DNA of 34,258 nt from a virus. Below, one piece after another: positions 6,446-25,598 of the stretch (positions are counted from its first letter, which is position 1; the number at the start of each line of letters is the position of its first letter). The stretch covers positions 1 through 34,258 of the IMG/VR virus record IMGVR_UViG_3300033143_002059; one strand, 5' to 3'. The notes beneath the pieces were generated by a model. That model was not told the origin of the DNA, ran no database searches, and saw only the letters and a program-made list of their open reading frames with translations. Made by a program: the position numbers and the translations under genes.

Positions 6446-6473
6446 AGCGCCGTTAGCCGAGCGCCGTTAGCCG
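6446..6473 (+). repeat. 14-bp tandem duplication inside the portal gene
   Basis: AGCGCCGTTAGCCG occurs twice back to back (6446-6459 and 6460-6473). Fourteen is not a multiple of three, so the reading frame changes here. Removing either copy joins the two halves of the portal into one smooth protein sequence. This identifies the exact mutation or assembly artefact. Confidence 0.95.
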
Positions 6474-7314: not shown

Positions 7315-7338
7315 GAGGTCGACGCCTCCGACCCTTTC
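7315..7338 (+). promoter_or_regulatory. Predicted -1 ribosomal frameshift site joining portal to MuF
   Basis: The canonical slippery heptamer C CCT TTC (7332-7338) lies in the correct phase of the portal frame, with a TAA three codons later (7348-7350). A -1 slip enters exactly the frame of the MuF domain, which is open from 7317 and has no ATG, GTG or TTG until 7602, deep inside its domain. GAGG (7315-7318) lies 13 bases upstream, where Shine-Dalgarno-like stimulators act in bacteria. A small CGGGT/ACCCG hairpin (7360-7376) lies farther downstream. The chaperone site at 26137-26160 has the same GAGG-N13-CCCTTTC layout. Confidence 0.7.
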
Positions 7339-8198: not shown

Positions 8199-8200
8199 TT

Positions 8201-8238
8201 GCGAACGAACGCCAAGCGTCAAGCGTCAAAAGAATCAG
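8201..8238 (+). promoter_or_regulatory. Bipartite intergenic element, copy 2 (possible phage ECF promoter)
   Basis: GCGAACGAACGCC, three variable bases (AAG), then CGTCAAGCGTCAAAA matches copy 1 at 28 of 31 positions with identical box spacing; ATCAG follows both copies. It starts two bases after the MuF stop. If GTCAAA (8225-8230) is a -10 box, transcription would start near 8237, about 11 bases before the ATG at 8248. Confidence 0.45.
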
Positions 8239-8247
8239 AGGATGACG

Positions 8248-8715
8248 ATGCCCGCTTATTTGAACCTAAAATCAGCTATCCGCACTGAAATTCATGCAGC
8301 GCTAAATGAGACCGGCAAATATGTCGTCACCCAAGCCGCGACCTATCCACCAGCGCCAGCAGGTAGCACTTACAAGAGGACTAGAAATCTTGGTCGCAGC
8401 ATCACGAAAGGACCAGTTGAGCAGAAAGGAAACACCTACTCGATTGAAGTAGGAACCGGCAAGAACATCCCTTATGCGATTTATGTCGAGCACGGTACCG
8501 GAATTTACGGTATCAAAGGCCAGCCAATCAGACCCAAGAAAGGCAAATTTCTAGTCTGGAAGGCAGCAAGCGGACAGATGATTTTTGCGAAACAAGTATC
8601 AGGCTTCCCCGGTTGGCACTTCATGGAAAAGGCAGTCACCGGCAAAGAATCACAAGCCTATTTCAAGGCTCGTATTGAGCAGATAATACCAAACATAATT
8701 GCTAAATCAGGATAA
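8248..8715 (+). CDS. HK97 gp10-like minor head or neck protein
   Basis: The 155-residue protein begins MPAYLNLKSAIRTEIHAALNETGKYVV and contains the conserved block IPYAIYVEHGTGIYG with a later GWHFMEKAV, both typical of HK97 gp10-like proteins that act in head-tail joining or tail completion. I place the start at ATG 8248, six bases after GAGG (8238-8241); ATG 8242 lies too close to that site, and an ORF extending to 8191 would run through the conserved intergenic element. It stands between the MuF domain and the head genes, rather than next to the tail genes as in HK97. Confidence 0.7.
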   Translation: MPAYLNLKSAIRTEIHAALNETGKYVVTQAATYPPAPAGSTYKRTRNLGRSITKGPVEQKGNTYSIEVGTGKNIPYAIYVEHGTGIYGIKGQPIRPKKGKFLVWKAASGQMIFAKQVSGFPGWHFMEKAVTGKESQAYFKARIEQIIPNIIAKSG

Positions 8716-10613: not shown

Positions 10614-12029
10614 ATGACTGTCAATTTAGACCTGACGCGTCTGCTCGAAGTCGCCAAGGCTACCGGCGCCCTTTCCGGGAATTATCCCGGTTCGGCTCCC
10701 ATGCCTGGCCTGATGAGCAAAGAAGCGTCATTAACCCTGTCGACCATGGGGTCGATGTATGGATGTTGCGGCTTGTTTACGGCCTGCGGAGATAATGACC
10801 TGTTGTCTCTCAGTGTCGAAGATGAGCCGTTCCTGGACTGGTTGGGATGGCAAGCGAACAACGAATGCAACCAGTTCGTTAAGCTGATCACCTACATTTG
10901 GCCCTCTGGCACCGCCGCTGGCAGCGCATCCGCTGGCACCGCTGGCGCTTGTGACGACCCGAACGGCGTAGAATTTGGCACTTGCGAGATTTTGCTTCCC
11001 GATAAGGGGCGCCTCAAAAGAGCCGGGCCAGTTCGTGACCTGACCGAGAACAACCGCAAAGTCTGCGACGAGTATCCCGTATTCACTAAAGACGGGCAGA
11101 AAATCAACGATGAACTGATGTGGTCGCTGACCCTGGCAGGCGTCACCGTTAAGCAAGATTTGAAACGGATGATCGTCACCGGTAACGCTGCCACAACCAA
11201 CCAGTTTAGCGGTCTCGAAACGCTGGTGAACACCGGTTATGTCAACGCTCACAATGGCCAGTATTGCACCTCGATGGATAGCCAGGTGATCAACTGGGCC
11301 AACCAACCGATGAGCTATCAGCCGAACGGTACGCACAACTTCGTCGATTACTTGATCGACACTGTGCGGCGCATCCGCCAGCGAGCGGCATGGGCCAACA
11401 TGGGCGGCATTAGCCTGGGCGACCAGGTTATCATGCTTCCCACGTATCTGCGTGACTGTTTGCTCGACAGCTTCACCTGCTGGAGCGTCTGCAAGGACAG
11501 CGATCTTGACCAACTGGCTACGCTTGAGGCTCGCACTTTCCGCAACAGCCTTAACGGCGGCACTTACGGCATGGGCCAGATCACCGTTGACGGTGTGCCC
11601 GTTCCGATTGTGACTTACGACTGGCAGGCAATGACGCAAACAGCGCCATACCACGTCGGCGATATCTATGTTCTGACCAAAAAGATCGGCAACGTGCCGG
11701 TTCTCTGGGGCCAGTACATCGACATGTCACAACCCGCAGCCGCATTCCAGGAACAAGCCGGATACGCGCATTACAAAGCGCTTGACGGTGGTAAGTTCCT
11801 TGCCTACTGGAAAACGGACAACGAATGCACGCAGGCGGTGCTGACCTTCCGACCGAATCTGTACTGCTCCGCCCCTTGGGCGCAAGCACGCATTTATGAC
11901 GTTGGCTGCGACCGCCCGCTCAACCCGATCAGCCCTGATCCCACGGCCACCTACTATGCCGAGGAATACCTCGACACAGCGGTTTGCCCCGAGGATTACC
12001 TGGTCACTCTGGAAGACGTTGCGCAATAG
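10614..12029 (+). CDS. Major capsid protein, cysteine-rich
   Basis: The 471-residue protein follows the protease-scaffold, as major capsid genes do, and has GGAG at 10603-10606 before its ATG. It contains blocks resembling a group of phage capsid proteins: LSLSVEDEPFLDWLGW, PNGVEFGTCEILL, GPVRDLTENNRKVCDEYPVF, MIVTGNAATTNQFSGLETLV and WGQYIDMSQPA. An HK97-type fold is likely. It has 15 cysteines, including a CC pair near residue 51 and a cluster (RDCLLDSFTCWSVC), which is unusual for a capsid protein and hints at disulfides or metal binding. The identification rests on position and remembered family resemblance. Confidence 0.75.
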   Translation: MTVNLDLTRLLEVAKATGALSGNYPGSAPMPGLMSKEASLTLSTMGSMYGCCGLFTACGDNDLLSLSVEDEPFLDWLGWQANNECNQFVKLITYIWPSGTAAGSASAGTAGACDDPNGVEFGTCEILLPDKGRLKRAGPVRDLTENNRKVCDEYPVFTKDGQKINDELMWSLTLAGVTVKQDLKRMIVTGNAATTNQFSGLETLVNTGYVNAHNGQYCTSMDSQVINWANQPMSYQPNGTHNFVDYLIDTVRRIRQRAAWANMGGISLGDQVIMLPTYLRDCLLDSFTCWSVCKDSDLDQLATLEARTFRNSLNGGTYGMGQITVDGVPVPIVTYDWQAMTQTAPYHVGDIYVLTKKIGNVPVLWGQYIDMSQPAAAFQEQAGYAHYKALDGGKFLAYWKTDNECTQAVLTFRPNLYCSAPWAQARIYDVGCDRPLNPISPDPTATYYAEEYLDTAVCPEDYLVTLEDVAQ

Positions 12030-12077: not shown

Positions 12078-12331
12078 AATCCCCCGCCGCCGAAACCATA
12101 CCCGCCATGTTACGAACCGGACTTCCAAGCCATCGCCTGCACCTACTCGGACGCCAATCTAAAGCGTCTGGCAGCTCACCTGCTCCGCCCGCCGCGTCTC
12201 GTGACATCTTCGACTTCTGGCAGGCTGACGGTGAACTAGGTGAGTATCCACCCTACAACGTAGACACCGGCGGCTTTGACTACTGGCAAGCCGACAATGA
12301 ATTTCCCGCAATTGAGTGCGAAACGACATGA
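12078..12331 (+). pseudogene. Small surface-protein gene with WxAD repeats, start lost and frame shifted
   Basis: Two overlapping readings look protein-like. In the capsid-gene phase, 12078-12239 gives KPYPPCYEPDFQAIACTYSD and NLKRLAAHLLRPPRL, with no usual start codon. From about 12190 the next phase gives DIFDFWQADGELGEYPP and GGFDYWQADNEF, ending in an ATGA overlap with the next gene (12328-12331). The second half matches the N-terminus of the protein at 18839. A single gene with one base lost near 12185-12200 explains both halves. An alternative is a separate short gene from ATG 12107. The 302 bases between the capsid gene and 12331 hold nothing else that I can support. Confidence 0.5.
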
Positions 12332-13764
12332 CATTATATATGATTAGAGCCACGGGGAACGACGGGCACGCTGGCACAGCGCCCGGCACGGCATGGCTGA
12401 CGGTAGACCATGCCGCTAACACTGTGGCGGCTGGCGATATCGTTTGGATTTGCGGTGGCACGTATCGGGAGACTGTGACCATTGACCCCTCGGGTACATT
12501 GGGAAGCGAGATAGAATGGTACGGCGATGTTGACGGCGCAATCACTGGTGATGCTGGCTTGGTTGTCATAACGGCATTGGATGCAAATAGTGGGGGAACT
12601 GGAACTGGTTCGATCCTTGATCTCAATGGCAAAAAATGGAATGAATTTTACAATCTAATTTTTACGGGATCAGGGACAGGATCGGGGGACGATATAGTTG
12701 CTGGGGTAACAGGAAACAATAATTATGAGGGTATTTTATTCGATACCTGTTTTTTTGACGATGTATCAGATTCCGGGAATTACTCACTAGTAATAAATTA
12801 TAATATTCCCGACGCAATCACCGGGAATAAACCGAAGTGCGTTAATTGTGTTTTTAACGGGCTTGTTGAGATCGCCTATTTAGCTATGGCGGCTGGTGAT
12901 GTTGCGTGCGGTTGGGGTTTTGAAAATTGCTTTTTTCTACGCGTTGTCACCTTCGATGGTCCTGCCGCCAGCACAGACGGAATTACGGGTTATGAACTTA
13001 TCAACTGCACCGGGTTAGCGGAAACATTAGTTATTGCGTCAGATCAGTGGAATACAGGCGATACAGGAGAAATCAGGAATTGTTGCATTGCTGGTGCTGG
13101 AGTGCTTCAGTCAATTGTTGCCGATGGCGGGACTTGGACAACATCCGATAGCCAACACAAAACCGAAATTGCTTATACGGGTTCAACAGCGCTTAGTTTG
13201 AATTTGCTTGGATTCATGGTCGAACCAATCCTGCGGAAAGTTTTTGGCACAACGCCATACGGTGCGCTGGAGCCGATTTGGGATCATAACGGTGGTGGCT
13301 TCAAAAGCCCCGCAATCGATGCAGGGAACGCAACCTATGCACCCGCCACAGACCTTTACGGAAACCCGCGACCAATGGGACGCGTAAGCGATGACATTGG
13401 CGCTGTTGAATCACGCCGACGCATAGCGCAGGAAACGACAACAACACGCACCGGCGCTAACGCTGGTGTGTTTGAAGGCGCTGGCTACCATGACATCATT
13501 CTGCCGGTTGCGGCAGCGCTTACGGTTGTAACCGTATACGGACGCTATGACAGCAACTACACCGGCGACAATCCAATCATCCGAGCGCTGGATATCCCCG
13601 GCGTTGCTGATCAATTCGATGATATGGCGGGACCGCCCGACAATTGGGAACAGATAAGCTGCTCGTTCACACCTACAGCGGCGGGAACGGTGCGAATAAG
13701 ATTGGAAAGCCGTGACACATCGGCAACCGGCAAGGCATTTTTTGACGATATGGCGGTGGCGTAA
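12328..13764 (+). CDS. Beta-helix virion surface protein (pectate-lyase-like)
   Basis: The roughly 478-residue protein starts at ATG 12328 (ATGA overlap); a GTG at 12316 is the alternative. The N-terminus (GNDGHAGTAPGTAW, GDIVWICGGTYRETVTI) is the entry of right-handed beta-helix proteins of the DUF1565/pectate-lyase-like type. Ladder-like repeats with alternating Asn, Cys and hydrophobic residues follow. Residues around 335-367 (SPAIDAGNATY, DLYGNPRPMG, DDIGAVES) are the typical end cap of such repeats. The last 110 residues resemble a carbohydrate-binding beta-sandwich. A capsid or tail fibre that binds or cleaves glycans is likely. Bases 12601-12850 are locally AT-rich. Confidence 0.65.
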   Translation: MTLYMIRATGNDGHAGTAPGTAWLTVDHAANTVAAGDIVWICGGTYRETVTIDPSGTLGSEIEWYGDVDGAITGDAGLVVITALDANSGGTGTGSILDLNGKKWNEFYNLIFTGSGTGSGDDIVAGVTGNNNYEGILFDTCFFDDVSDSGNYSLVINYNIPDAITGNKPKCVNCVFNGLVEIAYLAMAAGDVACGWGFENCFFLRVVTFDGPAASTDGITGYELINCTGLAETLVIASDQWNTGDTGEIRNCCIAGAGVLQSIVADGGTWTTSDSQHKTEIAYTGSTALSLNLLGFMVEPILRKVFGTTPYGALEPIWDHNGGGFKSPAIDAGNATYAPATDLYGNPRPMGRVSDDIGAVESRRRIAQETTTTRTGANAGVFEGAGYHDIILPVAAALTVVTVYGRYDSNYTGDNPIIRALDIPGVADQFDDMAGPPDNWEQISCSFTPTAAGTVRIRLESRDTSATGKAFFDDMAVA

Positions 13765-13767
13765 ACT

Positions 13768-14610
13768 ATGGCCAGCTTCCCCGAATGGGTGACGGTTGCA
13801 GAGGCGAGATCCCGTTACGGTGACGACATTGAGGATATCACCAACGCCGATTTGCGCCGTGAACTGGATAACATGACGGCGGCAATGGAAGATTTGCTTG
13901 GTCACACTTTCGGGCGCGCTGCCATCATGCAATCGTCAGCGGCGGACACGGTTGAGGTCACAGCATTGGCGCTCATTGTTGGCGGTGACACCTACACCCT
14001 GACCGATTACGATACACTGCTGGAGCTTGAGATAGCGGTCAATGCCGGGGGCGGCGATTATCAGATGGAGCTATTGGCGGGCGTGCGGTTGGATATGCCA
14101 ACTTCATTCCTGCGGGAATTTACCGCGACCGCTTGCGGGCCAACCTATGACCTGCGGCAAGTGCTGAGCATCTCGCACACCTACTACAAAGCCACGGGCG
14201 GCGAGTCTCACGTCTTCCTACCGTTGCCACTGTATAGCGTCAACAGCATCACCGAAAGCGGTACGGTGCTGGCGACGACCGCCTACTGGGCGCAAGTCGG
14301 CAAATCATACGTGATCAAGAAATATTGCACGTGCGTTGACGATGCTTGCCAGCATCCGCGCGGGCGCTGGAAGCAAACTTACCCCGACAATCTCATCATC
14401 ATCTATCGGCCCGTTTATTGGCTCAACATCCCTGCCAGCTTACAGGCGGCGGTGTTGCAGGCTTACGGCATTTCCCGCGACGTTGGCGGCTACACCAGCG
14501 AAAAATTCCTGTCCTACAGCTACAGTCGTCAAGGACAACCGGCGATGACTGTATCACAGGCGCTGACCCAATCCGGGATCGAGCGTTATCAGGTCAAATC
14601 GACATTCTGA
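13768..14610 (+). CDS. Head-tail adaptor (gp6/gp15-like)
   Basis: The 280-residue protein has a helical N-terminus (WVTVAEARSRYGDDIEDI and LRRELDNMTAAMEDLLGHTFG), a beta-rich middle insertion, and a C-terminus (IPASLQAAVLQAYGISRDVGG) that resembles the closing helices of head-tail connector proteins. These rings sit under the portal and start the neck. A short cysteine cluster (CTCVDDAC) lies at about residue 190. It starts three bases after the beta-helix gene. The remaining neck genes do not follow; a 9.6-kb cassette separates them. Confidence 0.65.
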   Translation: MASFPEWVTVAEARSRYGDDIEDITNADLRRELDNMTAAMEDLLGHTFGRAAIMQSSAADTVEVTALALIVGGDTYTLTDYDTLLELEIAVNAGGGDYQMELLAGVRLDMPTSFLREFTATACGPTYDLRQVLSISHTYYKATGGESHVFLPLPLYSVNSITESGTVLATTAYWAQVGKSYVIKKYCTCVDDACQHPRGRWKQTYPDNLIIIYRPVYWLNIPASLQAAVLQAYGISRDVGGYTSEKFLSYSYSRQGQPAMTVSQALTQSGIERYQVKSTF

Positions 14611-14612
14611 AT

Positions 14613-17258
14613 ATGGCTAAAATTCCAGCAAATCGCAGCGTTTGCATCTTACCGACATTCCACGAAGGAGCATTGGGCGGGGTGGCGCGACATATCGCGG
14701 GGCTGGTGCAGTATCTACCGGACTACGGCTGGGCGGTTGTCGAGGACGTTGCGGAAGCGGATATTGTGCATACGCACGCAGCGGAGCCAGCGGTAGACGT
14801 TGACGTTTACACGAATCACGGCATACATCCGATCCAGGAAAGGATGGCAGATTGGCAGAGCCTACAGAACCGCACGATCTTTGATTCAATCAAATATGCC
14901 AGAGAAGTAATCGCCGTCGCTGATTGGACGGCGGATAACTGGCGCGACTTGACCGGCGCATCCCCGCACATCATCCCCAACGGCATTGACCTGGGCGATT
15001 GGGACGGCCTGCAGGCGGACGGGCGCTGGCGCTCTGCGCTGGGCATCACCGATGAAACGCCGATCATCCTTTGGGGAAAGGTTGTTCTGTCCGACGTATG
15101 CGACCCCACGCCTGCGCTCGAATTGGCGTTACGGCGCCCTGAGGTGGCGGTCGTTATGACGGCCAGCGTCTCGCAACTACCGCAAGCGCCCGATAATGTC
15201 TATCTGGTCGGGCGGCAACAATACGAGCAGATGCAACACTTGATCGCAGAGTGTGATATTTATCTGGGCACAACGAAGGAAAATCACAGCGTGCAAGTGC
15301 TTGAGGCGATGGCTTGCGGCAAACCGGTTCTGGGTTACGCTTGGGGCGGGACTGTTGAGACAATCACAGACGGCGTTCACGGGCGGCTGGTTGAGCCTGG
15401 CGACATGGACGCACTCGAAACGGTGCTTGACGACGTGTTGGATAATGCCGACACCTACGGCAAAGCGGGGCGGGCACTGGTCGAAGATCGCTATCAATTA
15501 CAGGACATCACAGAACGCACAGCCAGGATTTATGATATGGCCTACAGCGCCAAACAGCACGAAGAAAAAGAAGGCGTGATTTGTTCAATTGTGATTCCGG
15601 TCTACAATAAAGCGCCGTTTGTCGGGGAGGCTATCCAGTCTGCGCTTCTCCAACAACACGCCCCGAACTATGAGTTGATTATCGTTGACGATGGTAGCAA
15701 GGACAACAGCCTGGCAGCAATCAGAAAGGCGATCAAAGACCAATCAACCGCCGCCATTGCCGTGACAGTGGTCAAACAGCAAAATAGCGGCGTATCTGAG
15801 GCGCGCAATAACGGAATCAGGCGAGCGCGTGGACGCTATATCTGTTGTCTGGACGCTGACGACCGCATTCATCCTCATTTTTTGCAGAGGCTATCGGCTG
15901 CGCTGGACGCCGATCCGGGGCTGGGCATCGCCTACAGCGACATGGTGACGTTTGGTCACACGCCCGGAAAGGGCAATTGGCAAGGACACATTAAAGCGTC
16001 TGAGTACGATTTCGGGCTGATGAAGCAACGCAATTTTATCCCCTGCTGCAATCTATTCAGGCGCAAAGCCTGGGAACGGGCGGGCGGCTACCGCAATATC
16101 AATCCGAGTTGGGAAGATTACGAATTCTGGTTGCGCTTGGGCAAGCTGGGATGGTACGGGCAGCGGGTACCGGGCGGTCTGTTCTTCTATCGCAAGCTGT
16201 TTCAGGAAGGGCGGGACTACGAAGCGAAAGATCATTCGCTTTACTTGCGGGCGCTGGTCAATAGCTTGCACCGGGACATCTACCCGCCAATGGTAAGCGT
16301 GGTCATTCCCTGCTACGAACACAGTCAATTCCTTGACACGGCGATCCAGTCGGCGTTACAGCAGACGTTCGCCGATCTGGAAGTCGTTGTCGTTGATGAT
16401 GGTAACAAGCCAGAAGAGGCGGAAGAGATAGCCAATATTGTATCGTTTTATGAATTGAGCGACGTGCGTCTGGTGCGTCTGGAAGAGAATCAGGGCTTGG
16501 CGGCGGCTCGCAATGCTGGCATCGAAGCGGCAAAAGGAAAATGGATCGTACCGCTGGACGCCGACGACATGCTGGATAAATCGTTTGTCGAGACTACCAT
16601 GCGAACGCTGCGCATGGATGAGGGCAGCTTCGCCTACACGGACAGCTATCTCTGGTATCCAGATGACAACAAAGAAATATTGCTTGAGGCGAACGATTAC
16701 GACTTCACTGAGATGTTGAAACACATCTCTTGGTCATGCACGATCATGCTTGCCAAATCAGCCTGGACGCTGGTCGGCGGTTACTCGGAGGAGATGAGCA
16801 AGATCGGGGGATGGGAGGATTGGGATTTCGCTATTGCACTTGGCGAGATTGGCATTTGCGGTCTGCACGTAGCAGAACCGCTATTTTATTATCGACAACA
16901 TTCTGAGACGCAAATGCGCAAAACAGCGTATGCCGTCAAACCAAGATTACAGGAAACACTTAGGCGGCGACATGCTGCCGTGTACCGAGGAGAGAGGACT
17001 ATGGGTTGCTGTGGAAGTTCAAGCAATAAAACAGATCCAACCATCGACCAATTACAAGCGGCTGCGGCTGCAATGCCTGAATCTGAGGACGGGCAACAGA
17101 TCGTCCGTTACACCGGTCGCTCAAGCGCACCCCGTCACTGGTCGACGCCAAGCGGCGCAACCTATGAGTTTTATCGCTTCCGCCCGCTGGTGGCTATGCC
17201 CGCAATTGACGCCGCCTATTTCCAGACAAAGCCCGATTTTGAGATTGTACCCGCATAG
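14613..17258 (+). CDS. Trimodular glycosyltransferase GT4-GT2-GT2 with a small phage-type C-terminal domain
   Basis: The 881-residue protein starts at ATG 14613, just after the adaptor; a longer in-frame extension lies inside that gene. Residues 1-310 are a GT-B (GT4-like) enzyme: FHEGALGGVARHIAGL, IPNGIDLGDW, and the donor-binding block VLEAMACGKPVLGYAWGG. Residues 324-555 are a GT2 domain (CSIVIPVYNKAPFVGEAI, DDGS, DADD). Residues 560-790 are a second GT2 (VSVVIPCYEHSQFLDTAI, DDG, PLDADD). Residues 797-881 (MGCCGSSSNK to the end) resemble small phage neck-region proteins. It probably builds a short glycan on virion proteins or modifies host glycans. The last domain may also be made alone (see 17001-17258). 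Confidence 0.88.
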   Translation: MAKIPANRSVCILPTFHEGALGGVARHIAGLVQYLPDYGWAVVEDVAEADIVHTHAAEPAVDVDVYTNHGIHPIQERMADWQSLQNRTIFDSIKYAREVIAVADWTADNWRDLTGASPHIIPNGIDLGDWDGLQADGRWRSALGITDETPIILWGKVVLSDVCDPTPALELALRRPEVAVVMTASVSQLPQAPDNVYLVGRQQYEQMQHLIAECDIYLGTTKENHSVQVLEAMACGKPVLGYAWGGTVETITDGVHGRLVEPGDMDALETVLDDVLDNADTYGKAGRALVEDRYQLQDITERTARIYDMAYSAKQHEEKEGVICSIVIPVYNKAPFVGEAIQSALLQQHAPNYELIIVDDGSKDNSLAAIRKAIKDQSTAAIAVTVVKQQNSGVSEARNNGIRRARGRYICCLDADDRIHPHFLQRLSAALDADPGLGIAYSDMVTFGHTPGKGNWQGHIKASEYDFGLMKQRNFIPCCNLFRRKAWERAGGYRNINPSWEDYEFWLRLGKLGWYGQRVPGGLFFYRKLFQEGRDYEAKDHSLYLRALVNSLHRDIYPPMVSVVIPCYEHSQFLDTAIQSALQQTFADLEVVVVDDGNKPEEAEEIANIVSFYELSDVRLVRLEENQGLAAARNAGIEAAKGKWIVPLDADDMLDKSFVETTMRTLRMDEGSFAYTDSYLWYPDDNKEILLEANDYDFTEMLKHISWSCTIMLAKSAWTLVGGYSEEMSKIGGWEDWDFAIALGEIGICGLHVAEPLFYYRQHSETQMRKTAYAVKPRLQETLRRRHAAVYRGERTMGCCGSSSNKTDPTIDQLQAAAAAMPESEDGQQIVRYTGRSSAPRHWSTPSGATYEFYRFRPLVAMPAIDAAYFQTKPDFEIVPA
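17001..17258 (+). CDS. Possible independently translated 85-residue C-terminal domain
   Basis: Inside the trimodular enzyme, ATG 17001 follows GAGGAGAGAGG (16987-16997), a strong Shine-Dalgarno sequence with eight bases between GGAG and the ATG. The product begins MGCCGSSSNKTDPT and contains QQIVRYTGRSSAPR and SGATYEFYRF, which resemble small phage proteins found near neck genes. It could be made both as the enzyme's tail and as a separate protein, possibly linking the enzyme to the virion. The resemblance is from memory of the pattern; dual expression is inferred. Confidence 0.5.
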   Translation: MGCCGSSSNKTDPTIDQLQAAAAAMPESEDGQQIVRYTGRSSAPRHWSTPSGATYEFYRFRPLVAMPAIDAAYFQTKPDFEIVPA

Positions 17259-17269
17259 GAGAATCGATC

Positions 17270-18232
17270 ATGCCAACTGTTTACAGCTATCCGACATATG
17301 AACAATCATACGAAACATGGAGGATGCGCGGGGGCGGTCCCGCTCATCACCAGGTGATGAAAAGCAAATATCTGGCATTCAATGATTGGGATGTTACCTA
17401 CGAGATCGGTGATGCCGATATCGTCCACGGGCACGGTGTCACCAGCCTGCCCGGTATGGACGTGCTCACAATTCACGCCGTATGGCCCACGCACATCTAC
17501 CCGGATCATCCTGCATTTTGGGATGAGCATAACGCCAAGATGGCAGCGGTCATGCAGCAAGTCGGGCAAGTGGTAGCGCTATCAGAATACACCGCCGGGC
17601 TATGCCGCGAACTGGCAGGCGTTGACGTGACGGTTGTTCCCCAGGCTATCGACCCGGAGGAGTGGGAGGATGAGCCAAATTACGATATACGCACCCACTT
17701 GGGTATCCCCGCCGACATGCCGCTGGTCATCTGGGGCAAGAACGCCGTTGACGTATTGCGCGACCCCACGGCGGCGGTGAAGTTGGCAGAGGCTAAACCA
17801 GACATCGCCGTGGTGATGACAGCAGAGCGTGACCAGGTGATCGCACAATCGGGGCAAATGCTTACAGAGAACGTCTTTTGCATCGGTACGCTGGCATTCC
17901 CCGCCATGCGCAACCTGCTACATGCCTCCGACATCTATCTGGCCACAACCATCGAATCAAGCGGGCAAGGACACCTCGAAGCTATGTATCTTGGCAAGCC
18001 AGTTCTGGGTTACAAGTGGGGTGGCGTTGCTGATACGGTTCCCGTCGGGCGTTATGGCGCTGGCGAACTGGTTGAGCCGGGCGACATTGACAGCTTGATC
18101 GACGCCTTCGATCTGGTCTGGCGGCGACGCAAAGGCTACGGAAGAAAGGCGGCGGCAACTGTGGCAAAATCGTACACATGGCCAGTCGTAATTGACCAAC
18201 TAATCGCAGTCTATGAAGAGGCAATGCAATGA
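17270..18232 (+). CDS. GT4-type glycosyltransferase
   Basis: The 320-residue GT-B enzyme has an N-terminal acceptor half (RGGGPAHHQVM, ADIVHGHGVTSLPGMDVL, VVALSEYTAG) and a donor half with VVPQAIDPEEW, PLVIWGKNAVDV, and the E-x7-E-like block ESSGQGHLEAMYLGKPVLGYKWGG. It should transfer a sugar from a nucleotide-sugar donor. Much of it parallels the GT4 domain of the preceding gene, suggesting duplication. AGGAG at 17257-17261, overlapping the previous stop, supports the ATG at 17270. It is coupled by an ATGA overlap to the methyltransferase. Confidence 0.88.
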   Translation: MPTVYSYPTYEQSYETWRMRGGGPAHHQVMKSKYLAFNDWDVTYEIGDADIVHGHGVTSLPGMDVLTIHAVWPTHIYPDHPAFWDEHNAKMAAVMQQVGQVVALSEYTAGLCRELAGVDVTVVPQAIDPEEWEDEPNYDIRTHLGIPADMPLVIWGKNAVDVLRDPTAAVKLAEAKPDIAVVMTAERDQVIAQSGQMLTENVFCIGTLAFPAMRNLLHASDIYLATTIESSGQGHLEAMYLGKPVLGYKWGGVADTVPVGRYGAGELVEPGDIDSLIDAFDLVWRRRKGYGRKAAATVAKSYTWPVVIDQLIAVYEEAMQ

Positions 18233-18834
18233 GTGACTTCACCGTTTATGAATTGGCACAACAGCAATGGGACAACGAACAAGGCAGCGCCGATCTGGTT
18301 GAGCATTTCCAGACATCGGACAACAAAACGGAGGCCGAAAAGATGGTCGCCGGATTGGTTGCCAATCTCGACCAACATGCCACCATCGTCGACCTCGGAT
18401 GTGGCCCTGGGCGCTATGTGGCGGCCCTGCCAGCGTTCCGCACCTACAAAGGCTATGACACCTCAGATCACCTTTTAACGGCTGCCAGGACGGCAAACAA
18501 AGGCGTCAAGGGCGTTCGCTTTTTCAACCGTGATCTATTCGAGGGCGCTGATTACAAAAGACCCGTTGACGTGGTGCTGAGCATCGACACCAGCCGCCAC
18601 TATCATTATCCGTTGCCTATGCTGGATGAGCTGGTCGAGCTATGGCCGGCGCGGGCGTATGTTTTCTCGATCTTGCACGGTCCAGAGGATACGCAATTGA
18701 TAAACGGGCGCTGCCTGGCAACCGCAGACGTTGACGCCTGGATGGACGGCAAGCATATCCCCGTGCAGATTGACCAGCCAATCAGCGGCGGCATGTTCGT
18801 TCGTTATATCGTTCTGGAACGAGAGGCCGATTGA
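18229..18834 (+). CDS. Class I SAM-dependent methyltransferase
   Basis: The 201-residue protein has the Rossmann-type motif I VDLGCGPGRYV at about residue 56, GYDTSDHLLTAA as motif II, and DVVLSIDTSRHYHYP in the motif IV position. There is no DNA-methyltransferase DPPY or PC motif, so small molecules, sugars or proteins are more likely substrates. Its start overlaps the GT4 gene, which suggests that it decorates the same glycan, for example by O-methylation of a sugar. That pairing is inference from gene order. Confidence 0.8.
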   Translation: MSDFTVYELAQQQWDNEQGSADLVEHFQTSDNKTEAEKMVAGLVANLDQHATIVDLGCGPGRYVAALPAFRTYKGYDTSDHLLTAARTANKGVKGVRFFNRDLFEGADYKRPVDVVLSIDTSRHYHYPLPMLDELVELWPARAYVFSILHGPEDTQLINGRCLATADVDAWMDGKHIPVQIDQPISGGMFVRYIVLEREAD

Positions 18835-18838
18835 CATA

Positions 18839-19531
18839 ATGGCTGATTCATCCAGCTTTGATTATTGGAGCGCTGACGGCGAATTAGCCCTATACCCGCC
18901 GCATGTGAACGCGGGTAGCTTTGATTATTGGAGCGCAGACGGAGAACTGGCAAGCTATCCACCAGGGACCGCAGTGGCAAACGATCCCGGCACAGCCGCC
19001 AATGATAATGATACCGGTACAATTGACTGGACAGACCCCGACAACGTGCTTGCCGACGATGCCAATGACGCCGAATTCACGGCGGGCGCTGGCGCTACGA
19101 CCTCGCACTATCTGAAAGTGACAAATTTCGGTTTTGCGCTTCCCGCTACAGCAACAATCAACGGCATTAAAATGAGCATGAAAATTGAGGCTGAAAGCGC
19201 TGACAATATGTATGATGACGGCGTGTATATCGTCAAAGATGATGTTATCGGCACCACCGATATGTCAAGCGCCACGGCATGGCCCACGACTGAAAGTAGA
19301 ACAGAGCGCGGCAATCCGACAAACAAGTGGGGCGAGTCATGGAATCATCTTGACATAAACAAAACCGGCTTTGGGGTCGCTGTTTCGGCCATTGGCGAAA
19401 ACAACAAAAAAGCCTGGATCAACCATATCAGAATGATCGTTTACTACACCGAAATGGAATCAGGAAGCGTCGGGCAGGTTGTATCACGAATACCGATCAA
19501 TACTAAAATCGGAGGTTTATTAACGAGATGA
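18839..19531 (+). CDS. Virion surface protein with WxADGE repeats and a beta-sandwich
   Basis: The 230-residue protein begins with two near-identical motifs, SFDYWSADGELALYPP and SFDYWSADGELASYPP, the same motif as in the disrupted gene after the capsid gene. The rest (GTAANDNDTGTIDW, SHYLKVTNFGFALP, ATINGIKMSM, INHIRMIVYYTE) is a beta-sandwich domain often found in phage and secreted proteins. ATG 18839 lies four bases after the methyltransferase stop. A structural or receptor-binding role is likely. It overlaps the next gene by ATGA. Confidence 0.65.
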   Translation: MADSSSFDYWSADGELALYPPHVNAGSFDYWSADGELASYPPGTAVANDPGTAANDNDTGTIDWTDPDNVLADDANDAEFTAGAGATTSHYLKVTNFGFALPATATINGIKMSMKIEAESADNMYDDGVYIVKDDVIGTTDMSSATAWPTTESRTERGNPTNKWGESWNHLDINKTGFGVAVSAIGENNKKAWINHIRMIVYYTEMESGSVGQVVSRIPINTKIGGLLTR

Positions 19532-22347
19532 CATATCTAGGCGATTTCTTAGAGGATTCAGTTTTATACTTTGCCTGGTCAACCAATGACGGCGACGGGG
19601 CAAGTATTACGCGCTCCACCGATGGCACGATCTCAATCTACAAAGACGACGGCACCGGGCAATCAGTGGCAGGCGTTACGGATACTGAGGATTTCGATGC
19701 TGTGACTGGCGTCCACATGTGCAAGATCGACACCAGTGCAGATGCGTTTTACGCCACCGGTCACGACTATACGGTCGTTTTGTCGGCTGCCACCATCGAC
19801 ACACAAACCGTCAATGCCGTACTGGCTCATTTCAGTATCGAGAATCGTTTCACCGAAGTGGATGTTGTCGCAATCAGCGGGGACACCGTCGCGGCCGATA
19901 ATCTTGAGTTGCAATATGACACAACCGGCTTGACTGGTGACACCTTCCCCGCTACACAGGCGGCGGTTGGCAATCTGACTTCTGGCTCCGCTGCTATCAA
20001 CACTACGGCCAAGAGCGCCCCGGACGGCTTTGTTCTCACAACCGGACTAAATGAGGCCAATGACGAGGACAGCACGCACGCCCTCGACGGCACAACTCAC
20101 GACCTCGAAGATAACGGCGGAACAACGGACGCCTATTATATTTTCGATGTGGGCGGTAACGGTGTTCCGGTTTCCATCACCTGGCACGGCTACGCACAAT
20201 CACAAGGCGATTCCTACGCCATTTATGCCTACAATTGGGTCGGGACAGCGTATGAGCAGATCGGAACGATTGTGGCGTCAAACGGCACGACGATAAGTGC
20301 AGAGATATTTGACCTTACAAATGCGCATGTCGGCACTGGTGCCAATATCGGGCTTGTGCGCTTCCGCTTCCAATCTACGGACGGGACAAAATTCGCTACA
20401 GACCGTATCACCTGCTCTTATGCCGTGGTCGCTGAATCGGTTGGCTATGCTGACGGCGCTATTTGGGTAGACTCTGCCGGTACGGCTGGCAGTGAGAATT
20501 ATGTCAATGGCACGGCTGACAATCCCTGCCCGTGGGCTAATGCTCTTGTCATCTCGGCGTCGTTGGGAATCAAGCGTTTCCACATCGCCAGCGGCGTGAC
20601 AATTACACTGGCGGCAAACTCAGACAATTACACGCTCCTGGGCATGGGCTGGACGCTGGCGCTGGGCGGGCAATCCATCGAAGGCGTGTTTGTTGAGGGC
20701 GCTTCGGTTGCTGGCATCGGCACAGCGACGGTAACGATGCCTCGCTTTGAGAAGTGCGGGATCGGCGTGGTCACAATGCCGCCAAGTATCCTGCGCTGGT
20801 GTGGCATTGGCGCTGGCGCCGGGCAATTCACAGCCGGAAGCGCCGGGCAGTATTTTATTATCGATTGCGTGTCGATGGTTCCCGGTTCTGGCTCGCCTGT
20901 GTTTGTTTTTTCTGGAATGGGATCGACCACGGGAATCAATACGAGGCGCTGGAGCGGTGGAGCACAGTACACCCTAGACACGCAATGCACGTTATCGCAT
21001 GAGGTGGTGACAGGTGGCGGAACTACAATCACGCCAGCAGATGCCAATGTTGAGATTCGAGGCATCACCCGATCCGTGACGCTGAATCTATCGGATACGG
21101 ACAGCGGTAACGTGATTCAGTTCGTAGGAACTACCGGGCCAATCACCATCACGGCGTCTGGCGCTGCTGACAATGCTACCGTCAACCTGTACGGCGTTTC
21201 GGCTTCGCTTGCAGATGCCGGGCACGGCACAACGAACGATTACACCGTCAATCAGGAAAATATCAACATCGAAGCCGACACCGCTTTAACCGACTACGAC
21301 CCGCCGACGAAATTAGAAATGGATAGCGGCTTCGCAGCATTGAACGATCTCACGGCGGCGCAAGTCAACGCAGAGGTTGACACGGCTCTGGCTGATTACG
21401 ACGGGCCAACGAAAGCGGAGCTAGACAATGCAGTCGCACCACTGGCCACATCGGCGGCGCTGGCTACGGTTGACGGCAACGTTGACGCTATCCTGCTGGA
21501 CACGGGCACAGACGGCGTGCTGCTGGCCAATGACGCAATCACACGAGACAAATACGACGAAAGCACAGCTTTCCCGCTCAGGGCGTCTGACACGGGTAGC
21601 ACGGAGGTGGCTCGCACCGGCGCTGACGGTGATTCGCTGGAAACGATAAGCGACGAAATCGCAGCGCTCAATGACGTCTCGCTTGTGGATGTAAATGCTG
21701 CGGTTGACATCGCACTGGTAGACATCCATCTGGATCATCTTCTCGCAGTCGATTACGACCCGGCCAGCAAGCCGGGCGTAGCAACGGCGCTGCTAAACGA
21801 ATTGGTCGAGGATGACGGCGGCGTTAGCCGTTACACAGAGAACGCACTGGAAGAAGGCCCGACGGGTGACGTTACGGTATCGGCGGCGGCGGTGTGGGCA
21901 TACGTGACCCGCACGTTGACCGGTAGCACGGGCGGCATCACAATCATCTCTGCTGTGAGCGGTTCAAAGATTACGGTCTATGCAAACGATACTTGGTCAT
22001 TTACTCTGACCGATTCCGACCTTGCTCTGACTGATTACGAGGCGCTGGCGTTCGTGGTTCGAGGCAATACCGGCGAAGATGATGACGCTATCCTGATTGT
22101 GCGCGACGACGATGGCCTGGTGCGCATCGGCGGCGCTGCTCCAATCAATGCAGCCAACGGCACGCTGACGAACATCGCTACGGCATTCTCGGTACTGATT
22201 GCCATCGACGAAACGGACATCGAGACGTTCGGGAACAAGACTTGGTTCCTCAAGGGATTCGACACGACGCCCGCCACGGATGAAGGCTACACGCTGGCAA
22301 CCGGCACGTTCACGATCAACCGCCCCGGCTTGCAGGCACAGGAGTAA
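19528..22347 (+). CDS. Large tail fibre or spike-like protein
   Basis: The 939-residue protein opens with a beta-rich domain (LGDFLEDSVLYFAWSTND, SISIYKDDGT-like, FYATGHDYTVVLSA) resembling N-terminal domains of phage receptor-binding and baseplate proteins of the BppU type. The middle (residues about 300-590) looks like a beta-helix. Residues 590-700 contain repeated alpha-helical segments (LTAAQVNAEVDTALADYDGPTK). The C-terminus from about 775 is a beta-sandwich. It is a probable fibre, spike or other surface protein. Its place in a glycosyltransferase cassette suggests that it may be a substrate. GGAGG precedes the ATGA start. Confidence 0.6.
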   Translation: MTYLGDFLEDSVLYFAWSTNDGDGASITRSTDGTISIYKDDGTGQSVAGVTDTEDFDAVTGVHMCKIDTSADAFYATGHDYTVVLSAATIDTQTVNAVLAHFSIENRFTEVDVVAISGDTVAADNLELQYDTTGLTGDTFPATQAAVGNLTSGSAAINTTAKSAPDGFVLTTGLNEANDEDSTHALDGTTHDLEDNGGTTDAYYIFDVGGNGVPVSITWHGYAQSQGDSYAIYAYNWVGTAYEQIGTIVASNGTTISAEIFDLTNAHVGTGANIGLVRFRFQSTDGTKFATDRITCSYAVVAESVGYADGAIWVDSAGTAGSENYVNGTADNPCPWANALVISASLGIKRFHIASGVTITLAANSDNYTLLGMGWTLALGGQSIEGVFVEGASVAGIGTATVTMPRFEKCGIGVVTMPPSILRWCGIGAGAGQFTAGSAGQYFIIDCVSMVPGSGSPVFVFSGMGSTTGINTRRWSGGAQYTLDTQCTLSHEVVTGGGTTITPADANVEIRGITRSVTLNLSDTDSGNVIQFVGTTGPITITASGAADNATVNLYGVSASLADAGHGTTNDYTVNQENINIEADTALTDYDPPTKLEMDSGFAALNDLTAAQVNAEVDTALADYDGPTKAELDNAVAPLATSAALATVDGNVDAILLDTGTDGVLLANDAITRDKYDESTAFPLRASDTGSTEVARTGADGDSLETISDEIAALNDVSLVDVNAAVDIALVDIHLDHLLAVDYDPASKPGVATALLNELVEDDGGVSRYTENALEEGPTGDVTVSAAAVWAYVTRTLTGSTGGITIISAVSGSKITVYANDTWSFTLTDSDLALTDYEALAFVVRGNTGEDDDAILIVRDDDGLVRIGGAAPINAANGTLTNIATAFSVLIAIDETDIETFGNKTWFLKGFDTTPATDEGYTLATGTFTINRPGLQAQE

Positions 22348-22350
22348 ACG

Positions 22351-23031
22351 ATGAACGTCTGCCCGATTGTGATGGTACGGAATGAGCAGTATTATATCCG
22401 GCAAGTTCTGCAACCGCTGGCCAGAGCCTTTGATTTGGTTCTGGTCGGCGATACCGGGTCCACAGATGGCACGGTGCGTATTGCTCGCTTGGTTGCGCCC
22501 AATGTCGAGGTTGTCGAGTACGGCCCGCAGAATATGACCGCGCTTACACAGGTGCGCAAGTGGCTTTGCGATATTGCCCTTGAGCGGGGCTATGAATACG
22601 CCATGCAGGTGGACGGCGACGAATTGATCCACCCGCTGGCATTGGCACAACTGGCGGCGCTGGAATTGCCACCAGGGAAACGGGCGGGCTTTACGACGAT
22701 GGTGAGCGTTGATCTTGACGATAATCGCAATTGGTTGCGCCTGGATGATTTCTACAATCGTCTGGCATTCTACCCGCTGAATGAGCGGCAAGTTGGCACC
22801 TATCCGTTTGAGTGGCCCGCTTGTTTCAAGCATCCGACAACCTATCATTACTTCGAGACGCCGCCGGGGCTATCTTCTCACGGCTTGCACCTGCATCGCT
22901 TACAGCGCAGCCCGAATGATGAACAGGTTTATCGTCGTCAGGAAAAACAAAAGCAATTTGCGATGAAGGATAAAGAGGGCGTCGAAGTGCTGAATCGCTT
23001 GGGATCATCGTGGACGGAGCTTCTAAAATGA
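22351..23031 (+). CDS. GT2-type glycosyltransferase
   Basis: The 226-residue protein has a GT-A fold signature: the N-terminal CPIVMVRNEQYYIRQVL, FDLVLVGDTGSTDGT (nucleotide-binding loop) and the DxD-like QVDGDELIHP that binds the metal and sugar nucleotide. It resembles family 2 enzymes that add a single sugar. It starts three bases after the large fibre gene and overlaps the phosphatase-superfamily gene by ATGA, linking fibre, sugar transfer and hydrolase in one operon. Confidence 0.85.
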   Translation: MNVCPIVMVRNEQYYIRQVLQPLARAFDLVLVGDTGSTDGTVRIARLVAPNVEVVEYGPQNMTALTQVRKWLCDIALERGYEYAMQVDGDELIHPLALAQLAALELPPGKRAGFTTMVSVDLDDNRNWLRLDDFYNRLAFYPLNERQVGTYPFEWPACFKHPTTYHYFETPPGLSSHGLHLHRLQRSPNDEQVYRRQEKQKQFAMKDKEGVEVLNRLGSSWTELLK

Positions 23032-23927
23032 GGCTATTATTCATCGGATTGGATGGCTTGGGCCTGACACGAGCAGAACGCTATCTGCTCGCCAACCTAC
23101 CGGACGCCTTGCGCTGGGGTGAATTGAGCGCCGAGCCGGGCGACCTTTGCAACACCGGTCCGAGTTGGACAAGCATCTTTACCGGTCAGCCAGCAGCGGA
23201 GCATGGCATCACCAGTTTGGTCGGAACGCCCAAGGACGGCTCGAAGGTGTTCAGGGATTTGCCCGGTCAATATCTGTTTGAGCAATTGCCAGGGACTACC
23301 GGTTGCATGAACATCCCCACGACCTATCCACCACGCGCCAGGTCTGGCGATTGGATGATTTCGGGCTATCCGTTCCAGCCCGTAAGCACGCCGGCAAACC
23401 TGTTGAATGGCTTGGATTATGTCTCAGATTACGCAAAGGCCGTCAACCTGCAACGCGCAGACCGAGGTGAATCATGGTTCTGGCCGGATGAAAACGAATT
23501 GCAGCAAGCGTTCACAATCATGCACATGATCGAGGAAATAAGGCTATCAACCCTGCGACGGTTGCCGGCGGTCGACAATCTATTCGTTGCCAATTGCATG
23601 TATGATCGGGGCGGGCATTTATGCCACGACCTTGACGAACACGAGCAAACCGAACCGCTGAATTATGCGGCGAAGCGTGTTGCGGATTGGGCGCTTCGAG
23701 TGATTGCACGTTTCCCCGCTCAGACGACAGTGCTTTGTAGTGATCATGGTTGGTCACAGGCTGAAAATCGACACGCACCTGGTGGATTCTATGCCATGTT
23801 CGGCGCTGGCGTTGAACCGGTACGGGTGGATCTCAAAAACTACGAATTGAAAGCGGTTATTGAGGACGCCTTGCTCGCAACCGATCCAGACGTTCACGAA
23901 CGCATGGAGGCGCTAGGCTATGTTTGA
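23028..23927 (+). CDS. Alkaline phosphatase superfamily enzyme (type I phosphodiesterase-like)
   Basis: The 299-residue protein starts MRLLFIGLDGLG with Asp9 as a metal ligand. GPSWTSIFTGQPAAEHGI contains the usual Ser/Thr nucleophile position (Thr48). MYDRGGHLCHD and SDHGWSQAENRHAPGGF supply the second metal site. This is the pattern of type I phosphodiesterases, nucleotide pyrophosphatases and phosphoglycerate mutase-like enzymes. There is no signal peptide, so it acts in the cytoplasm or on the virion. It may process sugar nucleotides or transfer phospho-groups onto glycans, but the substrate is unknown. I use ATG 23028 (ATGA overlap) rather than GTG 23010. Confidence 0.8.
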   Translation: MRLLFIGLDGLGLTRAERYLLANLPDALRWGELSAEPGDLCNTGPSWTSIFTGQPAAEHGITSLVGTPKDGSKVFRDLPGQYLFEQLPGTTGCMNIPTTYPPRARSGDWMISGYPFQPVSTPANLLNGLDYVSDYAKAVNLQRADRGESWFWPDENELQQAFTIMHMIEEIRLSTLRRLPAVDNLFVANCMYDRGGHLCHDLDEHEQTEPLNYAAKRVADWALRVIARFPAQTTVLCSDHGWSQAENRHAPGGFYAMFGAGVEPVRVDLKNYELKAVIEDALLATDPDVHERMEALGYV

Positions 23928-24249
23928 TTTCATCGTCACGGCGCTGGCCACATGGCGGCTGTCCTTTATGCTGGCTGAAGAGGATGGCCCGTTTGCCATC
24001 TTCGCCCGCTTCCGTCACGCCGTTGGCTTGCGTCAGACAGCCGTCAGGGAAAATGGCGCTGTCGAGGTGGCAATGGTGGCGCAATCGCCAGTAGCGGAGC
24101 TGTTCGCTTGCGTCTGGTGTCTGTCCGTATGGATTGCGGCGCTAATGACGTTGCAACCGCTTCGCCCCGTACGTTCCATCCTGGCAATTAGCGGCGGGGC
24201 TATCATTATTCAGGAGGCAATCCATTGGCTAGTCTATCGACAAAGGTAA
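23920..24249 (+). CDS. DUF1360-like membrane protein
   Basis: The 109-residue protein has the DUF1360 pattern: an N-terminal helix ending in ATWRLSFMLAEEDGPFAIFARFR, a conserved CVWCLSVWIAALM with paired cysteines, and a final helix beginning AISGGAIIIQEAIHW. DUF1360 proteins are small inner-membrane proteins of unknown role. It overlaps the phosphatase-superfamily gene by eight bases and the next gene by 25. It closes the glycosylation cassette. Confidence 0.75.
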   Translation: MFDFIVTALATWRLSFMLAEEDGPFAIFARFRHAVGLRQTAVRENGAVEVAMVAQSPVAELFACVWCLSVWIAALMTLQPLRPVRSILAISGGAIIIQEAIHWLVYRQR

Positions 24250-24656
24250 AAAAGATATTCAATCGCGCATGGCGGCGCTACGGTAAGCCGGTGGCGACGG
24301 TCGTGCGTCCGATCTCAGAATGGAACCTGCCTGCCGGCTTCGCTTACGATTCAACCTATGATCGCATCGTCGATGTTGACACCGTACCGCTCAACAATCC
24401 AGAAGCGTATTGGGTGACTGATTCCGTTTACATTGTCCCGAACGCTTATTCGGGCGACCTCAAGCTAATGATCGCAGTGGGAGCCATCCCCGCCGGTACT
24501 ACCGAATTCGGCGTGCTGAGCACTGACCTGGAAACGATTCAGGACGCCCACGCGATCCAGATAGACGGCGATTGGTATGACGTTATTGATACCGCTCATT
24601 CCCCTATCGGCACCGATGGCACATGGGCGCTTGTGCGCGTTTCACGAAGGAGTTGA
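24225..24656 (+). CDS. Neck protein, probable head-tail stopper-like
   Basis: The 143-residue protein starts with TTG at 24225, chosen because a perfect AGGAGG (24211-24216) lies eight bases upstream; no ATG fits better. It has a basic helical N-terminus (VKKIFNRAWRRYGKPV) and a beta-rich rest including HAIQIDGDWYDVIDTAHSP and TWALVRVSRRS, which resembles small head-tail closure or stopper proteins. Its position before the terminator-like and tail-tube genes supports a neck role. It overlaps the DUF1360-like gene by 25 bases. Confidence 0.55.
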   Translation: MASLSTKVKKIFNRAWRRYGKPVATVVRPISEWNLPAGFAYDSTYDRIVDVDTVPLNNPEAYWVTDSVYIVPNAYSGDLKLMIAVGAIPAGTTEFGVLSTDLETIQDAHAIQIDGDWYDVIDTAHSPIGTDGTWALVRVSRRS

Positions 24657-24658
24657 TT

Positions 24659-25078
24659 ATGTTAAGCAAATTACTGGAATGGCTGGCAGATGAATTGGAA
24701 ACGGCATTGACGTTGGATGTGATAAAAGCATTCCCGATCTGGCGGCGGCAAGGCGTAACGAACACAGACCCGGCAACGGCCAGCCTGCCCACTGGCTCGC
24801 TGTTCCTTGCTGAGAGTAACCGCACGTTGATCAAGCGCGTGGGCGCGGGACCAGGGCAGCGTCAGGCAACGTTTGAATTTTACGTCTTTTGTCGCCATGA
24901 ACGGGAATTGACTGACGCTATCGACAATCTGGAATCATGGAGCGAACGAACAGCAGCCGCAAGCGTCAATTCTATCAGAGTGGCTTTGCAGATTTCAGTC
25001 GGCACACGACTACCCAACGAACACGGATTACAACAGGAAGAACACGCTTTTTTCTGTCCAATCATCATTTCATGGTGA
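24659..25078 (+). CDS. Tail terminator-like protein
   Basis: The 139-residue protein has an N-terminal helix (MLSKLLEWLADELETAL), then strands with FPIWRRQGV, LFLAESN, RQATFEFYVFCR and a helix around ELTDAIDNLESWSE, the usual order of tail terminator and tail completion proteins. AAGGAG at 24646-24651 supports ATG 24659. It directly precedes the tail-tube candidate. These proteins cap the tail tube when the tape-measure length is reached. The assignment is from layout, not strong motifs. Confidence 0.5.
   Translation: MLSKLLEWLADELETALTLDVIKAFPIWRRQGVTNTDPATASLPTGSLFLAESNRTLIKRVGAGPGQRQATFEFYVFCRHERELTDAIDNLESWSERTAAASVNSIRVALQISVGTRLPNEHGLQQEEHAFFCPIIISW
24942..24978 (+). promoter_or_regulatory. 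Degenerate third copy of the bipartite element, inside a gene
   Basis: GCGAACGAAC and AAGCGTCAA match the intergenic copies, followed by ATCAG, but the boxes are one base closer and the region encodes part of the terminator-like protein. It lies about 120 bases before the tail-tube gene. It may be chance. Confidence 0.2.
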
Positions 25079-25091
25079 AGGAGTTCTACAC

Positions 25092-25598
25092 ATGGCACGT
25101 GACAGTTTTGACCATTCATTAGACGTTCGGCAGCAATATCTGTCACTCGTCTATCATTCTTTTCCTGGCTCTGGCGTCTGGACGCTTCTAAACCAGGGGC
25201 GCACAGTCAGCCCGTCGCAGTCGGCGGATGAACAGGAGTACAGCCGCATTGGCGACAAGAGCAAGCTGAAAGTCGCCGGTACAGTCACCACAGATGTAAC
25301 CGTGCAGGTCTACGTTCAGGACGATATCAGCGAACTGGCTATGCTGATTGGCACCACTGTGATAGGCGCTGGCTGGGCTGGAACTGAAGAGATTCAGCTT
25401 GATCCCACCGAAGCCCACGATCTGAAGATCGTCAATTTCAACGGTATCACGGCAGCCGCTGACATCCTCTCGAACGAGTATATCAACGAGTTCAAGCCGT
25501 TCAACCTTGGCCCGCCATTGGAGGCCGAAGGTGACGTGCGTATCGCTGATATCAGCGGCGCGGCTGCCAGCTACTACATCATACCAGAAGCGACATAG
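25092..25598 (+). CDS. Probable major tail tube protein
   Basis: The 168-residue protein is beta-rich with few repeats: YSRIGDKSKLKVAGTV, TVQVYVQDDISELAMLIGT, HDLKIVNFNGIT, and a strand-rich end (AASYYIIPEAT). Its size, the preceding terminator-like gene and the following frameshifting chaperones place it where siphophages encode the tail tube. The absence of a sheath gene beside it argues for a non-contractile tail. AAGGAG (25077-25082) lies upstream of ATG 25092. Confidence 0.6.
   Translation: MARDSFDHSLDVRQQYLSLVYHSFPGSGVWTLLNQGRTVSPSQSADEQEYSRIGDKSKLKVAGTVTTDVTVQVYVQDDISELAMLIGTTVIGAGWAGTEEIQLDPTEAHDLKIVNFNGITAAADILSNEYINEFKPFNLGPPLEAEGDVRIADISGAAASYYIIPEAT

Follow-up and report, generated by a model that had tools for sequence, protein, structure and literature searches.

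Arrangement of the glycan-enzyme cassette

Why should a run of glycan-enzyme genes stand between two neck genes of a phage? The question is raised by a virus record of IMG/VR, 34,258 bases long and classified as linear, which is here called the window in its entirety. In it, the head-tail adaptor Ad1 and the head closure protein Hc1 are indeed apart, separated by the approximately 9.6 kb of glycan-enzyme and surface-protein genes described in the original prediction, which was made from the sequence alone. All open reading frames listed at that time are present on the plus strand with intact frames (Table 1). The cassette runs from a GT4-GT2-GT2 fusion through a GT4, a methyltransferase, surfA, surfB, GT2b and PDE to DUF1360. 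The genes are packed on a single strand as claimed, with neighbor gaps between Ad1 and Hc1 of −25 to +11 nt. Overlaps of 4 nt join the genes starting at 17270 and 18229, 18839 and 19528, and 22351 and 23028, while PDE overlaps DUF1360 by 8 nt and DUF1360 overlaps Hc1 by 25 nt. Some gene starts had to be revised: surfA more likely begins at 18839 than at 18731, PDE probably at 23028 instead of 23010, and the start of the terminator-like gene was corrected to 24659.

Table 1. Features of the cassette and of the neighboring head, neck and tail genes in the window.
Feature	Position	Strand	Basis
MCP, anchor for finding relatives	10614..12029	+	PHROG 212 major head protein in 4/8 family members, best E 0.024
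Ad1, head-tail adaptor, left boundary	13768..14610	+	PHROG 442/783 head-tail adaptor in 4/5 family members, best E 3.2e-8
GT4-GT2-GT2 fusion with C-terminal CCG domain, fixed first gene	14613..17258	+	Pfam PF00534, PF00535 (twice)
CCG ("MGCCG") domain, possibly made separately from internal ATG	17001..17258	+	C-terminal side of GT2 in 8 loci
Second GT4 glycosyltransferase	17270..18232	+	PF00534, E 8e-10
SAM-dependent methyltransferase	18229..18834	+	PF13649, E 1.5e-7
surfA, W-x-x-DGE repeat surface-type protein, variable passenger	18839..19531	+	No family match
surfB, large fiber/surface-type protein, variable passenger	19528..22347	+	No family match
GT2b glycosyltransferase	22351..23031	+	PHROG 13126 beta-1,4-glycosyltransferase, E 6e-7
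PDE, alkaline-phosphatase-superfamily, phosphodiesterase-like	23028..23927	+	PF01663, E 1e-3, below cut-off
DUF1360 membrane protein with CxxC, fixed last gene	23920..24249	+	PF07098, E 2.5e-8
Hc1, head closure protein (stopper), right boundary	24225..24656	+	PHROG 161/82 Hc1 in 3/5 family members, best E 0.0016
Tail terminator-like protein	24659..25078	+	Position; weak PHROG 123 match in one member, E 0.16
Tail tube-like protein	25092..25598	+	Position; 55–62% identity in relatives; no family match

None of the neck proteins in the window has a family match of its own. Matches come from the families of their relatives, and these adaptor and Hc1 assignments support the Ad1–Hc1 split. Ad1 is 39–41% identical to its relatives; the MCP, whose match to the major head protein family is weak, shares 37–69% identity across the aligned relatives. 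Profile searches against solved structures with Ad1, MCP and Hc1 gave no match. An AlphaFold model of Ad1 was poor (pLDDT 51), and its top Foldseek matches, chains of the phi812 tail structure, had E-values of at least 0.006 over approximately 107 columns only; both were set aside as evidence. A Neck1/tail-completion protein (PHROG 5, E 2e-13) is encoded at 8191–8715, between a MuF-like gene and the MCP and away from the other neck genes, an order also present in L026, L029 and L011. Thus, the scattering of the neck genes is not confined to the Ad1–Hc1 gap.

The cassette boundary in relatives

IMG/VR provided the relatives L002 (contig 3300005096_000523), L007 (3300027902_000001), L005, L011 and L012. 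Two more are genome contigs of an Anaerolineae MAG (L028) and a Caldilineae MAG (L029), and searching 396 genomes of the same class with the MCP alone added L109, L110 and L112. A GT search matched 75 loci, most of which share GT2 domains only and were left out. Scanning IMG/VR with the window's adaptor alone yielded no relative, and the MCP had no match in the annotated phage collection. Several relatives are fragments, as is the window itself, and four relatives (L002, L007, L028, L029) span the region from adaptor to Hc1.

It had been proposed to examine whether relatives gain or lose the cassette at this boundary. All four spanning relatives hold it at exactly this place, and no cassette-free Ad1–Hc1 pair occurs among them. 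The claim that the cassette splits the neck genes therefore holds as anatomy and fails as an event, since a relative without the cassette was never found; for the same reason, the idea of a recent insertion was rejected. The first cassette gene is the fusion with its C-terminal CCG domain in every case, preceded in L002 and L028 by a small HEXXH gene, and the last is always DUF1360. The overlap between DUF1360 and Hc1 is 14 nt in L007 and 25 nt in the window and the three remaining relatives (L002, L028, L029).

The HEXXH protein between adaptor and fusion (L002 6448–6783, L028 2238–2573) is SprT-like at a score below the cut-off, with a PHROG 1233 match (E 8e-15) for L002. At 7257–8637 of L011, the adaptor is matched in its N-terminal part only, and adaptor and GT fusion are separated by an Amidase_2 protein (E 2e-16). 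The reading of L028 5166–5560 and L029 12631–13056 as cell-wall hydrolases was made by eye, gained no support from Pfam and was rejected.

Between the fixed ends, the gene content varies. The window has a GT4, a methyltransferase, surfA, surfB, a GT2 and PDE; L002 a methyltransferase and PDE; L028 an unknown gene, a methyltransferase and a small membrane protein; L029 a methyltransferase and PDE between two unknown genes; and L007 a PIG-L deacetylase, a hexapeptide acetyltransferase, two GT2 and a second methyltransferase type. As the MCPs of L002, L028 and L029 are 86–89% identical and their interiors differ, the cassette interior turns over far more rapidly than the capsid. In pairwise comparisons, the identities of GT fusion, CCG and DUF1360 track those of MCP and Hc1 (r 0.90–0.98). 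Being driven largely by this one tight clade, the correlation lends some support to vertical descent. The membership of the cassette as originally given must be divided: the GT4-GT2-GT2-CCG fusion and DUF1360 are fixed, and the surface proteins, the second GT4 and the second GT2 are variable passengers.

Bacterial capsule and O-antigen loci have fixed flanking genes around a variable enzyme interior. The cassette is like them in its fixed ends and variable interior, but differs in having no detected flippase and in being sited within a virion operon. An alternative view of the same variability is that the Ad1–Hc1 gap is a general cargo slot, tolerating late passengers such as glycan enzymes, lysis genes and fibers without a single function. 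This would explain why the interior differs even at such high MCP identity, why L011 has an amidase next to its GT fusion, and why possible hydrolase and holin genes occupy the slot in L028. However, a mere cargo slot is improbable given that the fusion and DUF1360 are constantly present and constantly at the ends, and that GT plus CCG are kept down to an MCP identity of 21%.

Age of the module

Relatives found via the MCP alone, the cassette not being used, have GTs following the MCP wherever the contig is long enough. In the distant relatives (MCP 21–40% identical), these lie directly after the MCP: L110 (37%) encodes a GT4, a sulfotransferase and a GT2-GT2-CCG protein; L109 (40%) has a GT2-like gene immediately behind the MCP (by eye); and L112 (21%) continues with GT2-CCG, a methyltransferase, GT17, a GT2-like protein, DUF1360 and a Neck1-like protein (by eye). 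L012 (36%) carries a GT4, HNH, GT2-GT2-CCG, DUF1360, an epimerase, a Gfo/Idh oxidoreductase and a DegT aminotransferase, followed by a hexapeptide acetyltransferase, a GT2 and methyltransferases. Thus, the wider group has the module directly after the MCP, and the window's clade has the adaptor between the two. Presence of the cassette in all four spanning relatives, together with GTs after the MCP in the distant ones, indicates an old core module, not a recent insertion.

Two of these contigs deserve separate mention. The epimerase, Gfo/Idh, DegT and hexapeptide transferase genes of L012 (5426–10649) resemble a sugar-nucleotide pathway set in a phage, and its genome may be circular, as either end of the contig carries a piece of the MCP. 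The contig of L005 ends ahead of the cassette position; its MCP is followed by a glycosyl-hydrolase-core protein and Ser-Pro-rich repeat proteins, and virion-region proteins encoded at 14054–18904 bear long, mucin-like SPSASPSESPS repeats, which are possible carriers of O-glycans.

Enzymes and surface proteins of the cassette

Of the families that had been assigned, those of the fusion, the second GT4, DUF1360 and the methyltransferase are secure according to Pfam. The assignments of GT2b (E 1e-4) and of the phosphodiesterase-like enzyme are weaker, with scores under the Pfam cut-offs. For the fusion, Glycos_transf_2 scores E 2.7e-61 over two domains and Glycos_transf_1 E 1.7e-17, full-length identity to relatives is 52–57%, and the motifs are intact (DxD at 414 and 649, WEDY/WEDW at 500 and 734, E-x7-E at 223). 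Pfam scores and the DxD and E-x7-E motifs thus place the cassette GTs, as predicted proteins, in families GT2 and GT4. The closest solved structure is a bifunctional chondroitin synthase (E 5e-37). Chondroitin and heparosan synthases are bifunctional GT2-GT2 polymerases and share the tandem GT2 domains with the fusion. In the fusion, which is phage-encoded, a GT4 precedes this tandem and a CCG domain follows it.

The second GT4 shares 37–40% identity with the GT4 domain in the relatives' fusions, and the relatives have no such gene in that place. Homologs of the methyltransferase are found at the equivalent place in L002, L028 and L029 (40–41% identity). PDE shares 55–57% identity with its counterparts in the cassettes of L002 and L029, and GLDG, SDHG and DRxxHxxH-type motifs are visible. 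DUF1360 scores 34.3 bits against a Pfam gathering cut-off of 21 and thereby belongs to this family; with one to three hydrophobic segments, it is the sole predicted membrane protein of the window's cassette. The DUF1360 protein of L002 had no match in annotated phages.

As to the passengers, the N-terminus of surfA matches a sequence in L029 (E 5e-5), and surfB has a short match to the L007 protein immediately upstream of Ad1 (E 4e-5). The cassette of L007 also contains a GT2b homolog (36% identity). The window and L007 each have both GT2b and a surfB-like protein and L002, L028 and L029 have neither, which, with five genomes only, is a hint of a possible pairing. The beginning of the W-x-x-DGE repeat of surfA (18839–18950) recurs in small beta-helix-adjacent proteins (L002 2062–2292, L029 5634–5747).

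A C-terminal domain of the GT fusions

The GT4-GT2-GT2 architecture was borne out, and the first enzyme additionally carries an 85-aa C-terminal domain not listed in the original prediction. This conserved "MGCCG" domain, new here, lies behind the second GT2 and is present on every fusion. It opens at a conserved ATG in eight of eight loci, usually preceded by a GGAG-type, ribosome-binding-like sequence 4–11 nt upstream. In L012, TAAGGAGG stands upstream of the ATG at a spacing of 8 although the peptide differs from the RGER of the other loci; a match of this quality is equaled at 0.4% of the codon positions of that gene. In four loci, the upstream match is GGAG only, which is found at 30–40% of positions. 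These sequence features suggest that the CCG domain may also be translated as a free protein.

An AlphaFold model of the domain was fair (pLDDT 78) and gave no confident fold match; resemblances to GINS and PsaD folds (Z up to 5.5) are matches without meaning. The CCG domain of L002 had no match in annotated phages, and phiKO2 matches to that of L110 were at chance level. Among 400 Chloroflexota genomes, a CCG profile found the L029 genome only.

Proposed function of the cassette

The cassette most likely decorates the phage's own virion proteins, an assignment made here from genes alone and held with moderate confidence. It lies within the structural operon in every relative found, and none of its GTs contains a hydrophobic (transmembrane) segment. 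In six virus records, which are possibly fragments, neither GtrA (PF04138) or a Wzx-type flippase nor Tet/JBP (PF12851) was detected. Soluble GTs, these missing genes, the operon position and the mycobacteriophage precedent together favor cytoplasmic glycosylation of phage proteins. The original prediction of virion-protein glycosylation consequently remains the best reading, to which co-variation with the virion genes, the overlap with Hc1 and the tight spacing behind Ad1 add. The beta-helix, fiber and WxADGE proteins named there would be putative acceptors. The operon position is indirect evidence of the target, as the slot is shared with possible lysis genes in L028 and L011. Because the window and several of its relatives are fragmentary, genes for a flippase or for DNA hypermodification could lie outside.

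Phage GTs commonly modify host surface glycans. The cassette enzymes might accordingly alter a glycan of the host envelope, with superinfection block or receptor change as the outcome, as in the Gtr (gtrA/gtrB) serotype-conversion clusters of temperate phages, with which the module has in common its GT2 domains, including PHROG matches to GtrB-like O-antigen conversion. Yet such an activity appears unlikely here: unlike the Gtr clusters, the module has no membrane GT and no GtrA or Wzx match in any of the six records, possibly fragments, and it is located in the structural operon, co-varying with virion genes.

Glycosylation of modified phage DNA bases, as in T4-like and Tet-type phages, is very unlikely: the window does encode a C5-cytosine methyltransferase (2617–3723), and a thymidylate-synthase-family gene (PF00303) of one distant relative, in the genome of L012 (G002:C1:55337–55642), could serve hypermodification there, but Tet/JBP is matched in none of the six records and this hydroxymethylase family is missing from five including the window, the module stands in the head and tail gene block and not beside DNA-metabolism genes, and its deacetylase, acetyltransferase and sulfotransferase partners suit glycoconjugates. 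GTs that hypermodify DNA are known from phages (Pyle 2024, via PMC12619734), which is a point in its favor.

For virion glycosylation, we propose the following mechanism. The cassette would be an old, probably late-expressed module at the head/tail gene boundary of a siphophage lineage associated with Chloroflexota, bacteria that are probably the hosts of this virus family. The soluble GT4-GT2-GT2 enzyme would use cytoplasmic nucleotide sugars to assemble a short glycan on a phage structural protein, while still in the cytoplasm. Interchangeable interior enzymes (further GTs, methyltransferase, phosphodiesterase-like enzyme, deacetylase, acetyltransferase, sulfotransferase and whole sugar-nucleotide pathways) may vary or finish it. 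Translational overlap with Ad1 and Hc1 could tie the dose of the module to that of the neck proteins, and the CCG domain may dock the fusion on the acceptor or an assembly intermediate. We infer a role of DUF1360 and the timing of glycosylation as parts of this mechanism. A more specific version, in which free and fused CCG tether the GT to the particle in a capsule-locus-like cassette within the virion genes and couple glycosylation to head-tail joining, is doubtful.

The cassette's place within an already known kind of system, phage-encoded virion glycosylation, is thus plausible. Mycobacteriophages glycosylate capsid and tail-tube proteins by their own GTs, and those of Che8, Corndog and Myrna are thought to act on virion proteins (Freeman 2023, via PMC12363180, PMC12619734). 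In contrast to these, the GT4-GT2-GT2-CCG fusion and DUF1360 here frame a variable cassette in the Ad1–Hc1 gap. Of the 56 records, grouped by organism, that the GT fusion matched in the phage collection (E 1e-8), none was a mycobacteriophage. Should the proposal be true, an entire lineage of phages of uncultured Chloroflexota would have virion glycosylation as a core trait of long inheritance, its glycan chemistry diversifying in the manner of a surface-antigen locus against a slowly evolving capsid. Phage protein glycosylation would then extend past the mycobacteriophage cases, and a compact module, made up of a soluble GT fusion, a small conserved domain as its partner and a fixed membrane protein, would be available for probing acceptor choice.

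Further observations on head and tail genes

The frames of the terminase large subunit (4178–5817) and the portal (6023–7350) are each interrupted by a frame change in the window. Their counterparts in L110 (terminase) and L029 (portal) match in one frame, and the breaks are either an assembly error or real. Of the 471 residues of the MCP, 15 are cysteines, and many of these cysteines are conserved. In translation, the tape measure protein (26460–31016) displays a long Leu-Pro-rich repeat run, LPELxLxxxLDLxLP. Finally, the beta-helix gene is relocated: it follows the MCP in the window (12316–13764) and precedes the protease in relatives (L002 581–2065, L029 4162–5631), the window's protein being 35% identical to theirs.
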